The notes beneath the pieces are model-generated. The model ran no database searches, was not told the DNA's origin, and saw only the letters and a program-made list of their open reading frames with translations. Of a stretch of DNA of 64,000 bases, positions 3,281 to 58,749 are shown piece after piece. The stretch is from a virus: positions 17,343 through 81,342 of the IMG/VR virus record IMGVR_UViG_3300035698_012707; one strand, 5' to 3'. The position numbers and the translations under genes were made by a program. Each line of letters opens with the position of its first letter. Position 1 is the first letter of the stretch.

Positions 3281-3309
3281 TTGAAAAAAAAATCCGTTTA
3301 TGGTATAAT
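3281..3309 (+). promoter_or_regulatory. sigma-70-type promoter
   Basis: TTGAAA (3281-3286), exactly 17 nt, then TATAAT (3304-3309). It starts directly after the stop of the preceding zinc protein and would drive the genes from 3336 onward. Confidence 0.8.
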
Positions 3310-11358: not shown

Positions 11359-11919
11359 ATGCGTAAATCAAATATTGGTATAGACTTAGACGGCGTAATA
11401 TGTAATCTCTATAAAGAAGCAAGACCATTATTTAAAGAAATGTATGATATAGAAGTAACTGAAAGTTGCTTAGACGTAGAAAAAGAATATGGTCTAACTA
11501 AGAAACAAGTATCAGATCTATTCATTGAAGCAGGAAAAAGGGGTATGTACAGAAACTCTAGCGTATACGATAAGACGAGGAGTCATCTAGTAAACATATC
11601 TAGACAGTATAACATATTCTATGTTACAGTAAGAGATTTCTATCATCAAATAAAGAAGGACACTTTTTATTGGCTGGACAAGAACAAGCTGCCATACTTC
11701 AGAGTTGTTTTCTCTCGGTCGAAGCATAAGATTGCAGAACGAGAAGATTTTCAATTCTTTGTGGACGATGATCCTTTTATTTGCAATAGAGTAGCAAAGA
11801 CTAACACACCAACATATCTATTCAAACAACCATGGAACACTAAGGCACCATTAGATCCTTTGGTAAAAGTAATAGATAGCTGGCAGGAAATAGAAGATAT
11901 ATTAATAGTTGAAAAGTAA
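11359..11919 (+). CDS. 5'(3')-deoxyribonucleotidase-like HAD phosphatase
   Basis: 186 residues, AAGGAG upstream. HAD motif I is G-I-D-L-D-G-V-I (nucleophile Asp), motif II V-T-V-R near residue 94, a Lys in the SRSKHK segment, and motif IV F-V-D-D-D-P. This resembles the NT5C family that dephosphorylates deoxynucleoside monophosphates. It fits the phage nucleotide-pool genes (ThyX, MazG-like, NrdD/G). Exact substrate cannot be read. Confidence 0.75.
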   Translation: MRKSNIGIDLDGVICNLYKEARPLFKEMYDIEVTESCLDVEKEYGLTKKQVSDLFIEAGKRGMYRNSSVYDKTRSHLVNISRQYNIFYVTVRDFYHQIKKDTFYWLDKNKLPYFRVVFSRSKHKIAEREDFQFFVDDDPFICNRVAKTNTPTYLFKQPWNTKAPLDPLVKVIDSWQEIEDILIVEK

Positions 11920-11937
11920 AGAGATCTATGCTATAAT
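11909..11937 (+). promoter_or_regulatory. sigma-70-type promoter
   Basis: TTGAAA (11909-11914), 17 nt, TATAAT (11932-11937). Transcription would start near 11944, only about 6 nt before the ATG at 11950, so that frame would be nearly leaderless. Confidence 0.75.
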
Positions 11938-20228: not shown

Positions 20229-20304
20229 TGCGGGATGGAGCAGTGGTCAGCTCGAGTGTCTCATAAGCACTAGGTCGTGGATTCGAATTCCGCTCCCGCA
20301 ACCA
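20229..20304 (+). tRNA. tRNA with CAT anticodon (Met, or Ile after C34 modification)
   Basis: 76 nt, acceptor TGCGGGA/TCCCGCA, D stem GAGC/GCTC, anticodon loop CTCATAA, CCA encoded. T1-A72 pairs, so it is not an initiator. Confidence 0.9.
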
Positions 20305-20374
20305 TATAATAATAACTATTTATACTCTTAACCTAGTGACTATTTGAAAGTAAAAATTTCGCAGAGAGTTATTA

Positions 20375-20461
20375 GCGGGTGTGGTGAAATTGGCAAACAC
20401 GCTAGATTTAGAATCTAGTGTCAGAGATGACATGGGAGTTCAAGTCTCTCCACCCGCACCA
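20375..20461 (+). tRNA. tRNA-Leu (TAG)
   Basis: 87 nt with a long variable arm, acceptor GCGGGTG/CACCCGC, anticodon stem CTAGA/TCTAG around loop TTTAGAA, CCA encoded. Confidence 0.93.
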
Positions 20462-20475
20462 AGTTTAAATTATAT

Positions 20476-20553
20476 GGTGGTTGTAGCTTAATTAGATAAA
20501 GCACTTGACTGTGAATCAGGAAGATGGCAGTGCAACTCTGCTCGATCACCCCA
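20476..20553 (+). tRNA. tRNA-His (GTG)
   Basis: Anticodon loop CTGTGAA; the extra 5' G pairs with C73, the histidine identity feature; CCA encoded. Confidence 0.92.
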
Positions 20554-20590
20554 AAAATTATAAGTAAGAAGAATTAAACGGAGGAATAAG

Positions 20591-20755
20591 ATGAAATATG
20601 TTTATCTTGTAGAACTTGAAAAAGAAGACGAAGAAAGATTTAAAAAACTTATTCAAAAAGATTTTAAAAATTCTATAGTAAAATTAAAAAGCTTTGGAGA
20701 TATTGAATCAGTGGAAAACCAAGAAGAATATGACGCTTGGATGGCAGCTGGATAA
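20591..20755 (+). CDS. small acidic protein
   Basis: 54 residues, GGAGGAATAAG upstream, located within the tRNA array. Starts M-K-Y-V-Y-L-V-E-L-E-K-E-D and ends Y-D-A-W-M-A-A-G. A ferredoxin-like or KTSC-like small fold is possible. Function unknown. Confidence 0.55.
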   Translation: MKYVYLVELEKEDEERFKKLIQKDFKNSIVKLKSFGDIESVENQEEYDAWMAAG

Positions 20756-20771
20756 CAAAAGGAGGAATACA

Positions 20772-20876
20772 ATGGGATTAATAGTATTAGCAGCTAATTT
20801 CTGGTATTTGTATGGTGTTGCTTGCGGCCAGGTAGTAGGCGCAGCAGCCATTCAAAAAATGATCTTAGGTGCATAG
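20772..20876 (+). CDS. very small hydrophobic protein
   Basis: 34 residues, AGGAGG upstream. One hydrophobic helix with Gly and Ala. The ribosome site is the main support. Confidence 0.45.
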   Translation: MGLIVLAANFWYLYGVACGQVVGAAAIQKMILGA

Positions 20877-20884
20877 AGTGTGAT

Positions 20885-20976
20885 GGGGTGCGGCATGCTA
20901 ACATGTCCATGATACAGCGGGTGTGATAACATACCCGTGCTGTAGCAGGTGTAGGAATTAACCTACCGCCCCTCCA
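20885..20976 (+). ncRNA. tRNA-like structured element 1
   Basis: Closed by GGGGTG/CGCCCC and ending TCCA like a tRNA. GTAGG/CCTAC sits where a T arm would be (loop AATTAA, not TTCGA). A long central hairpin is formed by TACAGC/GCTGTA and GGGT/ACCC. No normal D arm or anticodon arm. It is either a degenerate tRNA or a tRNA-mimicking RNA. Confidence 0.4.
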
Positions 20977-20985
20977 ATTTTTTAT

Positions 20986-21022
20986 GGAGACGTGGTGTAA
21001 TTGGTAACACAGCATATTTTAG
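20986..21022 (+). pseudogene. truncated tRNA (5' half)
   Basis: Acceptor 5' strand and D arm (GTGTAATTGGTAACAC) are intact, but the sequence runs straight into the start of tRNA-Gln with no 3' half. It looks like the remnant of a tRNA replaced by recombination. Confidence 0.6.
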
Positions 21023-21099
21023 AGAGGAGTAGTTCAGTTGGTCAGAACATCAGGTTTTGATCCTGTCGGTCGCTGGTTCGAATCCGGCCTCCTCTTCCA
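21023..21099 (+). tRNA. tRNA-Gln (TTG)
   Basis: Acceptor AGAGGAG/CTCCTCT, anticodon loop TTTTGAT, T loop TTCGAAT, CCA encoded. Confidence 0.92.
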
Positions 21100-21100
21100 T

Positions 21101-21175
21101 CAGGGAGTAACTCAGTCTGGTCAGAGTCCTCGCTTTGGAAGCGAGTTGTCAGAAGTTCAAATCTTCTCTTCCTGA
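21101..21175 (+). tRNA. tRNA-Pro (TGG)
   Basis: Acceptor CAGGGAG/CTTCCTG, anticodon stem CTCGC/GCGAG around loop TTTGGAA, T loop TTCAAAT. CCA is not encoded (CTC follows). Confidence 0.85.
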
Positions 21176-21189
21176 CTCTTTTAAATTAT

Positions 21190-21375
21190 AACGAGTGGCG
21201 AAAAGAGACGCATGTCAAGCATGAGACTGTGGTTAGCAAATGCAATCAACTTAAGATGATTACCGCTCCACATATGTAGGGTGACTATACGAGTAGAATC
21301 AACCATTTCAACGGTCTACGAAACTGTTGTAAAATTGTTGGCTAACAACCAATGTCTCGTCAAAGCCTACCTCGT
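21190..21375 (+). ncRNA. two tRNA-sized structured elements
   Basis: First element: GAGTGG pairs with CCGCTC across ~80 nt, with AATCA/TGATT near its 3' end like a T arm. Second element: GTAGG pairs with CCTAC and ACGAG with CTCGT across ~95 nt, with inner hairpin GTTG/CAAC. Neither has a canonical T loop or a readable anticodon arm. They lie between tRNA-Pro and tRNA-Ile. Confidence 0.35.
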
Positions 21376-21385
21376 TACATAATAT

Positions 21386-21461
21386 TGCCTTGTAGCTCAG
21401 TTGGCAGAGCAGTGGCTCGATAAGCCATTGGTCAATGGTTCGAACCCATTCGAGGCAACCA
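21386..21461 (+). tRNA. tRNA-Ile (GAT), unusual C33
   Basis: Acceptor TGCCTTG/CGAGGCA, anticodon stem GTGGC/GCCAT, loop TCGATAA. Position 33 is C instead of the near-universal U; positions 32-33 read TC where CT is normal. CCA encoded. Confidence 0.82.
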
Positions 21462-21535
21462 GTCCAAGTAACCGAATGGCTAGGTAGTGGATTGCAAACC
21501 CATTTATGCTGGTTCGAATCCAGTCTTGGACTCCA
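21462..21535 (+). tRNA. tRNA-Cys (GCA)
   Basis: Acceptor GTCCAAG/CTTGGAC with U73 (a Cys identity base), anticodon loop TTGCAAA, T loop TTCGAAT, CCA encoded. Starts immediately after tRNA-Ile. Confidence 0.92.
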
Positions 21536-21537
21536 GT

Positions 21538-21611
21538 GGGGGTATGGTGTAGTGGTAACATGAGTGGCTCCAGACCACTTGACATGGGTCCGATTCCTAT
21601 TGCCCCTGCCA
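21538..21611 (+). tRNA. tRNA-Trp (CCA)
   Basis: Acceptor GGGGGTA/TGCCCCT (first pair G-T), anticodon stem AGTGG/CCACT around CTCCAGA, T loop TCCGATT (slightly unusual), CCA encoded. Confidence 0.88.
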
Positions 21612-53790: not shown

Positions 53791-54553
53791 CTCTATCCTC
53801 CATTGCTTTTTCGTTCATACAAAATATCTTGAACCGGCATCTTCCACAGCTCAACCTGTTATCTGATGGATAGAAAATTCTATTCTCTATTCCATTAGCT
53901 ATGTTATACAATATCTTCCTTGCTCTCACAAAGTCGCTTCCGCTTCTCTGGACCACAACCTCTTGCTTCTTTCCTATGTTACATATTATAATATTAGACT
54001 CTTTAGTTTCAAAGCTCTTCCTAAAAGCATACGATGCAACTGTTTTGCTTAAGTCTATCTTGCTTACAAAATCATCTGGCATCTGTGGAGAGTATGAAAA
54101 GAATACAAGGTCTGTTTCTCTTTTTCGTGTACGATCATTTAATAACTTTATTAGAGGTATAGTTCCTCTAACGTGAATATTAGTCTCTCCTTCGAAAACT
54201 GCCTCGTACCTAAAATCAACAGCTATAGGAGTAACCTTATCGTTGCTAGCGTATCTATAGAAATTCTTTAGGAGATTTATGGCCATGTTAGACCTCTCCC
54301 TAATGTCCTCTTCCTTGAAATTGCTTTCTATTTCACTAGTAAACCACAGCTGTTCCCACTTAGTGAATAGATTATTTAATGATTTTTCATTCTTATCTAT
54401 CATGCAAAAGTAATAGTACGATATCGTTTGCCTAAGTGTGTCTTTAAAAAAATCCTTAATACTCTTTTTTTCTGGGACAAAGTCTACGTGTTTAAACTTA
54501 TATTTTTGAGGACAATCTTTATAGTCCAATATTTCTTGCATACTAAGACGCAC
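53756..54553 (-). CDS. Cas4/AddB-like PD-(D/E)XK protein, active site possibly lost
   Basis: 265 residues from a GTG with GGGGGAAAGA upstream. D-Y-K-D-C-P-Q-K-Y-K-F at the start and C-G-R-C-R-F-K-I-F-C at the end supply the four Cys of a 4Fe-4S Cas4/AddB nuclease. The expected D and E-x-K residues in the middle are not clear (H-V-R-G-T-I-P-L), so it may be inactive. Confidence 0.7.
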   Translation of the reverse strand: MRLSMQEILDYKDCPQKYKFKHVDFVPEKKSIKDFFKDTLRQTISYYYFCMIDKNEKSLNNLFTKWEQLWFTSEIESNFKEEDIRERSNMAINLLKNFYRYASNDKVTPIAVDFRYEAVFEGETNIHVRGTIPLIKLLNDRTRKRETDLVFFSYSPQMPDDFVSKIDLSKTVASYAFRKSFETKESNIIICNIGKKQEVVVQRSGSDFVRARKILYNIANGIENRIFYPSDNRLSCGRCRFKIFCMNEKAMEDRDVVSKGFNNRT

Positions 54554-58265: not shown

Positions 58266-58294
58266 ATTATAACACAATATTTTCGACATTTCAA
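58266..58294 (-). promoter_or_regulatory. sigma-70-type promoter
   Basis: On the minus strand: TTGAAA (58294-58289), 17 nt, TATAAT (58271-58266). Drives the minus-strand operon beginning at 58246, including HNH and primase-helicase. Confidence 0.8.
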
Positions 58295-58303
58295 CTAAAA
58301 ATT

Positions 58304-58657
58304 TGGTGGACCTGCCGGTAATCGAAACCGGGTCCTATATGTCCTTCAGCTAGATCGATGTACAGTCATTCTTACTTGGGGGTGACCACCAGTTACTTTT
58401 ATCTTATATTACGAGCAAGTAACGAGCTCTCTACCAACGTGAGAATATTCTGTTGCAACGTTATCCTCAGACGCCCGGTCCCTAGAGACCAAAATAGGTT
58501 CAACAACTTTGTCATCCAGCATATCGGACACCATGTTGAGAACCCGCTTAAACGGTTTAGGTTTAGCATTTATTTTTTGTGCATCTTTTTAACGAGGCCA
58601 GATGCTCCTCGGACTGCGCTCTAGAATTCAAACGAATAGTCGAATCCTTTCAGGCCC
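58304..58657 (-). ncRNA. ssrA: tmRNA (ssrA)
   Basis: 354 nt. 5' GGGCCTG pairs with 3' CAGGTCC, then A and CCA. The third pair is G-U, the alanine identity pair. T arm CCGGT-TTCGATT-ACCGG is standard and the D-like GGATTCGAC is typical. Pseudoknot 1 fits: CGAGG/CCTCG plus GCATCT/AGATGC. The resume codon is probably GCT at 58567. That frame stays open 52 codons to a TAA at 58409 and does not end in the usual Ala-Ala, which is abnormal. Its promoter lies at 58680-58708. Confidence 0.88.
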
Positions 58658-58679: not shown

Positions 58680-58708
58680 ATTATATCACATTTATATGTC
58701 CTTTTCAA
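58680..58708 (-). promoter_or_regulatory. tmRNA promoter
   Basis: On the minus strand: TTGAAA (58708-58703), 17 nt, TATAAT (58685-58680), placing the start about 20-25 nt before the mature tmRNA 5' end. Confidence 0.8.
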
Positions 58709-58720
58709 CCTATTTTTTAG

Positions 58721-58749
58721 TTGAAATACAACTATATTTATGCTATAAT
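58721..58749 (+). promoter_or_regulatory. sigma-70-type promoter, divergent to tmRNA promoter
   Basis: TTGAAA (58721-58726), 17 nt, TATAAT (58744-58749). Drives the Cas4-like nuclease gene at 58796. The -35 boxes of the two divergent promoters are only 12 nt apart. Confidence 0.8.

Follow-up and report, generated by a model that had tools for sequence, protein, structure and literature searches.

Can a phage tmRNA free stalled ribosomes and add a long extension without a degradation signal to the rescued protein? The question is raised by a locus in the window analysed here, a stretch of 64,000 nucleotides (positions 17343-81342 of a virus record 81,342 bases long). The covariance model of the one-piece bacterial tmRNA (RF00023) spans exactly 58657-58304 of this window on the minus strand, at full length and with 105.3 bits (E 4e-40; curated cut-off, 47 bits). 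A search with this model had been proposed in the first-pass annotation, and its outcome agrees with the identity given there. At default settings ARAGORN called no tmRNA here and so missed the gene. The gene and its flanking elements are as follows.

58304-58657, minus strand: one-piece tmRNA gene, 354 nt (model positions 1-374).
58638-58657, minus strand: 5' part of the tRNA-like domain, with acceptor strand GGGCCUG and GGAUUCGAC.
58304-58331, minus strand: 3' part of the tRNA-like domain, with T arm, acceptor strand CAGGUCC and ACCA.
58581-58610, minus strand: pseudoknot 1, complete, with GAGG/CCUC and GCAUC/GAUGC (from sequence and model alignment).
58680-58708, minus strand: promoter-like site TTGAAA-N17-TATAAT, with TG preceding the -10 box (11 of 12 consensus matches).

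All tmRNA hallmarks listed in the first-pass annotation (G3-U70, T loop, pseudoknot 1) are present. The acceptor stem is paired at seven of seven positions, with G-U as its third pair (G3-U70); the T arm is paired at five of five, with loop UUCGAUU; CCA is encoded in the gene. Judged from these features, the tRNA-like domain should be chargeable with alanine. Pseudoknot 1 is followed by the conserved U-A element ahead of a GCN resume codon. The promoter-like site, from which the gene may be transcribed, ends 22 nt upstream of the tmRNA 5' end. Six TTGAAA-N16-18-TATAAT sites are found in the window against 0.12 expected (3281-3309, 11909-11937, 53985-54012, 58266-58294, 58680-58708, and 58721-58749), and they probably represent one promoter class of the phage; three of them fall in a 500-nt stretch that includes the tmRNA, with TTTTTAGTTGAAA or a similar sequence in common. 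No SmpB gene was found in the 81-kb record, so the phage tmRNA would rely on host SmpB.

The reading frame that this RNA offers to a ribosome depends on where translation resumes, and two further elements are needed here.

58568-58572, minus strand: frame-setting element UAAAU ahead of the resume codon (recognised from control tmRNAs).
58409-58567, minus strand: tag reading frame, 52 codons and UAA, starting at GCU 58567-58565.

The GCU follows directly after UAAAU, which is in its canonical place; in E. coli, U85 and A86 lie five and four bases ahead of the resume codon and help frame setting, A86 most of all (PMC2481249). Cellular controls were obtained by a genome scan for the same pseudoknot 1 and UAAAUGC, which yielded 33 tmRNAs from Verrucomicrobiota (including Kiritimatiellae), Clostridia, and a few others. 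The GCN frame after UAAAUGC gives a tag ending in Ala-Ala in 33 of 33, and complete tags are likewise obtained from 11 one-piece tmRNAs of phages that share the element; throughout this set sharing UAAAU and GC, tags have 8-35 residues. Five phage controls without UAAAUGC (L331, L332, L334, L336, and L339) had their frames picked by context and tag ending, and therefore give no independent test of the rule. As the GCN rule is correct in the 33 cellular and 11 phage tmRNAs, the resume frame at GCU is well supported, and a different resume codon, one of the ways out considered earlier, is disfavoured.

From GCU 58567 the frame translates as AKPKPFKRVLNMVSDMLDDKVVEPILVSRDRASEDNVATEYSHVGRELVTCS and stops at UAA 58411-58409; the earlier reading, open for 52 codons to TAA at 58409 and without Ala-Ala, is thus confirmed by translation. 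Length controls were 45 tmRNAs (33 cellular, 12 phage), whose tags run from 8 to 35 codons with none above 35; the last residue is Ala or Val in each of the 12 phage tags. The published range is also 8-35 residues (PMC8012679, PMC3968760). With 52 residues and the polar C-terminus ELVTCS, the present tag is outside both this control sample and the published range, and it exceeds the length of a standard proteolysis tag. C-terminal LAA of the standard tag is the ClpX binding point (PMC3968760); the present tag has VTCS in place of such a protease-recognised hydrophobic end, so degradation via ClpX would not be expected. A long or non-degradable tag had been among the suggestions made from the first reading: the length stands as sequenced, non-degradability is probable, and a tag of this kind in use is a possible reading. 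AlphaFold modelling of the tag alone was uninformative (helix 5-20, mean pLDDT 71, pTM 0.24). An open run of this length is unusual, yet within reach of accident: 5% of shuffles of the region keep the tag frame open, and two of the 90 wrong frames of the 45 control tmRNAs are open for at least 52 codons.

A peptide without a protease signal would also fit an RNA whose GCU frame goes unused, either because resumption occurs in another frame or because the RNA serves as a decoy, tying up SmpB or stalled ribosomes and adding no normal tag. There is precedent in phage DS6A, whose RNA, the tRNA-like part only, inhibits tmRNA (PMC4131195, PMC11915505). The two RNAs are alike in being phage-borne and unable to add a normal protease tag; that of DS6A has no ring or frame, and the present one has both. 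Against an unused frame stand the presence of every part needed for charging and resuming, the validity of the resume rule across controls, and the frame of the hairpin stop described below, which runs into UAA at offsets 2 and 8 and so yields no better tag. We consider this explanation improbable, and the decoy put forward in the first-pass annotation is unsupported, given a tRNA-like part, pseudoknot 1, and a full-length ring.

The same annotation had pointed to a TAA in another frame, in the hairpin loop where the stop is normally found, and this is present.

58541-58557, minus strand: helix-5-like hairpin whose loop contains a UAA (58550-58548) out of the tag frame (from sequence).

The hairpin reads AACCG-UUUAAG-CGGGUU, with the UAA 17 nt into the tag frame, and its position is that of the stop-bearing helix 5 of other tmRNAs; a hairpin of this kind arises in 10% of shuffles. 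Ring length points to a hairpin stop that has fallen out of frame: the resume-to-P2 distance is 203 nt, against 197-225 nt in cellular tmRNAs with tags of 9-18 residues, and the in-frame stop has only 44 nt of ring behind it, where phage controls have 122-221 nt. Among the controls, L331 has a frame other than the chosen one open for about 47 codons. With a net shift of one base, the hairpin UAA would be in frame after about six codons, still without Ala-Ala and below every control tag, so that a one-base slip alone restores no normal tag. That the helix-5 stop was shifted out of frame by a small indel in the phage itself is a tentative proposal.

Were the indel instead an assembly or sequencing error, the true tag would be short and would stop in the helix-5 hairpin; what reads as 52 codons would be the pseudoknot ring in a wrong frame. 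The cellular-like resume-to-P2 distance, the UAA in the loop, and the two wrong control frames open for at least 52 codons are all consistent with such an error. Against it, neighbouring long genes of 1010 and 819 codons show no interruption, which argues that such errors are not frequent in the contig, and the hairpin stop leaves the same six or so codons without Ala-Ala. This explanation we hold to be rather unlikely, and somewhat less so than an unused frame.

Codon usage and folding of the region bear on both kinds of slip and on a further origin, that of a tag frame evolved within the ring. Two pseudoknot candidates are found there.

58435-58469, minus strand: pseudoknot candidate UGAGGAUA/UAUUCUCA with loop pairing, within the reading frame (from sequence).
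58392-58429, minus strand: pseudoknot candidate GAGC/GCUC and GUUACUU/AAGUAAC, whose loop holds the in-frame stop.

Of the six frames, the tag frame scores as the most coding-like on the phage's own codon usage. A common test puts its z at 1.65 (real phage tags, 0.8 to 3.5, mean 1.9; 60 non-coding frames, 0.0 ± 1.0). The signal is present in both halves of the frame, and its score is below that of the phage's own genes. Resemblance to real tags in this respect points to an evolved long tag and counts against an assembly error. The one-sided phase of stops (none in frame +1, nine in frame +2) was rejected as a sign of coding, being rare in the phage's own genes as well. Nested-fold z-scores did not separate ring from tag. 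A pseudoknot-plus-hairpin score did: its z is -3.2 ± 1.4 for real phage rings, -3.5 ± 1.7 for cellular ones, and 0.1 ± 1.2 for tag reading frames, and the present region falls between rings and frames, at -1.3 to -1.8. Taken together, these tests pull in both directions, none of them decisively. This intermediate score would suit an assembly error. It is also a weaker pseudoknot signal than that of most controls and, with the odd tag frame, could mark a degenerate tmRNA copy without function now; a perfect acceptor stem, T arm, pseudoknot 1, resume element, and promoter-like site would be unexpected in decay, and we regard degeneration as very improbable. The E. coli tmRNA tolerates replacement or interchange of pseudoknots 2-4 with no serious loss (PMC3968760), so an RNA with a tag in their place could work. 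Evolution of the 52-residue frame in place of pseudoknots 2-4 is put forward with reserve, as is the narrower form in which the phage has made the mRNA part of its tmRNA into a 52-residue frame replacing pseudoknots 2 and 3, whose product would spare rescued proteins tag-directed proteolysis or give them another fate.

The explanation that we favour, and hold to be somewhat probable, is that of a real phage tmRNA which frees ribosomes and adds an extension of 52 residues that carries no degradation signal. It joins two origins, the indel in the phage and the evolved tag, which receive about equal weight; the weights given to all readings are a matter of judgement, not computation. The RNA would be charged with alanine by host alanyl-tRNA synthetase through G3-U70 and, with host SmpB, would enter stalled ribosomes. 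These would switch to GCU 58567, read 52 codons to UAA 58411, and be released; the rescued protein would bear a 52-residue extension ending in VTCS and lacking the hydrophobic or Ala-Ala terminus recognised by ClpXP.

Relatives were sought at several levels. No DNA similarity was found in 50,697 phage records, a collection that may leave out those closest to the window's own; the RNA had no match, nor had the tag peptide among viral contigs, phages, Pfam, PHROGs, or its own genome; and neither tag nor ring showed significant similarity to control tmRNAs. Searches of IMG/VR with primase-helicase, UvsX, and two other proteins returned only one, distant, phage relative (L075/L290; primase-helicase identity 27%), a 65.8-kb record without tmRNA, and a primase search through 742 genomes, from two clades sharing this type of pseudoknot 1, gave no close phage relative. 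Elsewhere in the window are a cluster of eight tRNA genes (20229-21611, plus strand; Met, Leu, His, Gln, Pro, Ile, Cys, and Trp), a 394-residue protein weakly matching the PhuZ family of phage tubulins (16514-17698, plus strand; E 2e-4), and a 290-residue protein matching the C-terminal domain of Chlamydia plasmid Pgp3 (63080-63952, minus strand; PF05475, E 2.8e-7).

The phage RNA resembles the one-piece bacterial tmRNA (ssrA, RF00023) in its tRNA-like domain, G3-U70, P2, pseudoknot 1, resume element, ring length, and encoded CCA; it differs in its 52-codon tag, the lack of a hydrophobic end and of an in-frame helix-5 stop, and its uncertain pseudoknots 2-4. With the long-tag phage tmRNAs (L227, L246, L249, L332, and others) it shares a phage location, the same type of pseudoknot 1 and resume element, and a tag longer than cellular ones. 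Tags of those RNAs have 23-35 residues with Ala or Val ends and 122-221 nt of ring downstream, and neither tag nor ring is similar to the present one. Tag lengths are 33 residues in L242, L246, and L252; 32 in L248 and L257; 35 in L249; 28 in L227; 30-31 in L245, L334, L336, and L339; 29 in L332; 23 in L331. Some lack Ala-Ala, with ends VVMA, AALV, and LSRV. The present tag either stands at the extreme of this long-tag trend or arose by accident in such a setting.

Other phage tmRNAs were noted in passing. The tag AAPMRMAA follows a pseudoknot 1-like element in ten viral contigs (L235, L237, L238, L240, L241, L243, L244, L253, L254, and L255), in most of which GAATCGAC replaces TTCGAC; L333 and L340 carry permuted tmRNAs (RF04321), and all of these are probably two-piece phage tmRNAs. 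A GOLLD RNA (RF02032, 153.6 bits; L249, 5849-6251, minus strand) lies about 0.8 kb from the tmRNA with the 35-residue tag. Group I intron matches (RF00028; L334, 677-886; L341, 4644-4853), apparently within a tRNA gene, start 17 nt behind a phage tmRNA.

In one survey, tmRNA was present in 402 of 18,146 phage genomes (PMC9004378). Environmental phage tmRNAs repeatedly carry tags of 23-35 residues, some of them ending unusually; the commonest cellular tag has 10. If the favoured explanation is true, ribosome recycling would be separated from protein destruction, the two roles of trans-translation, which suggests that this phage may need only the recycling of ribosomes.
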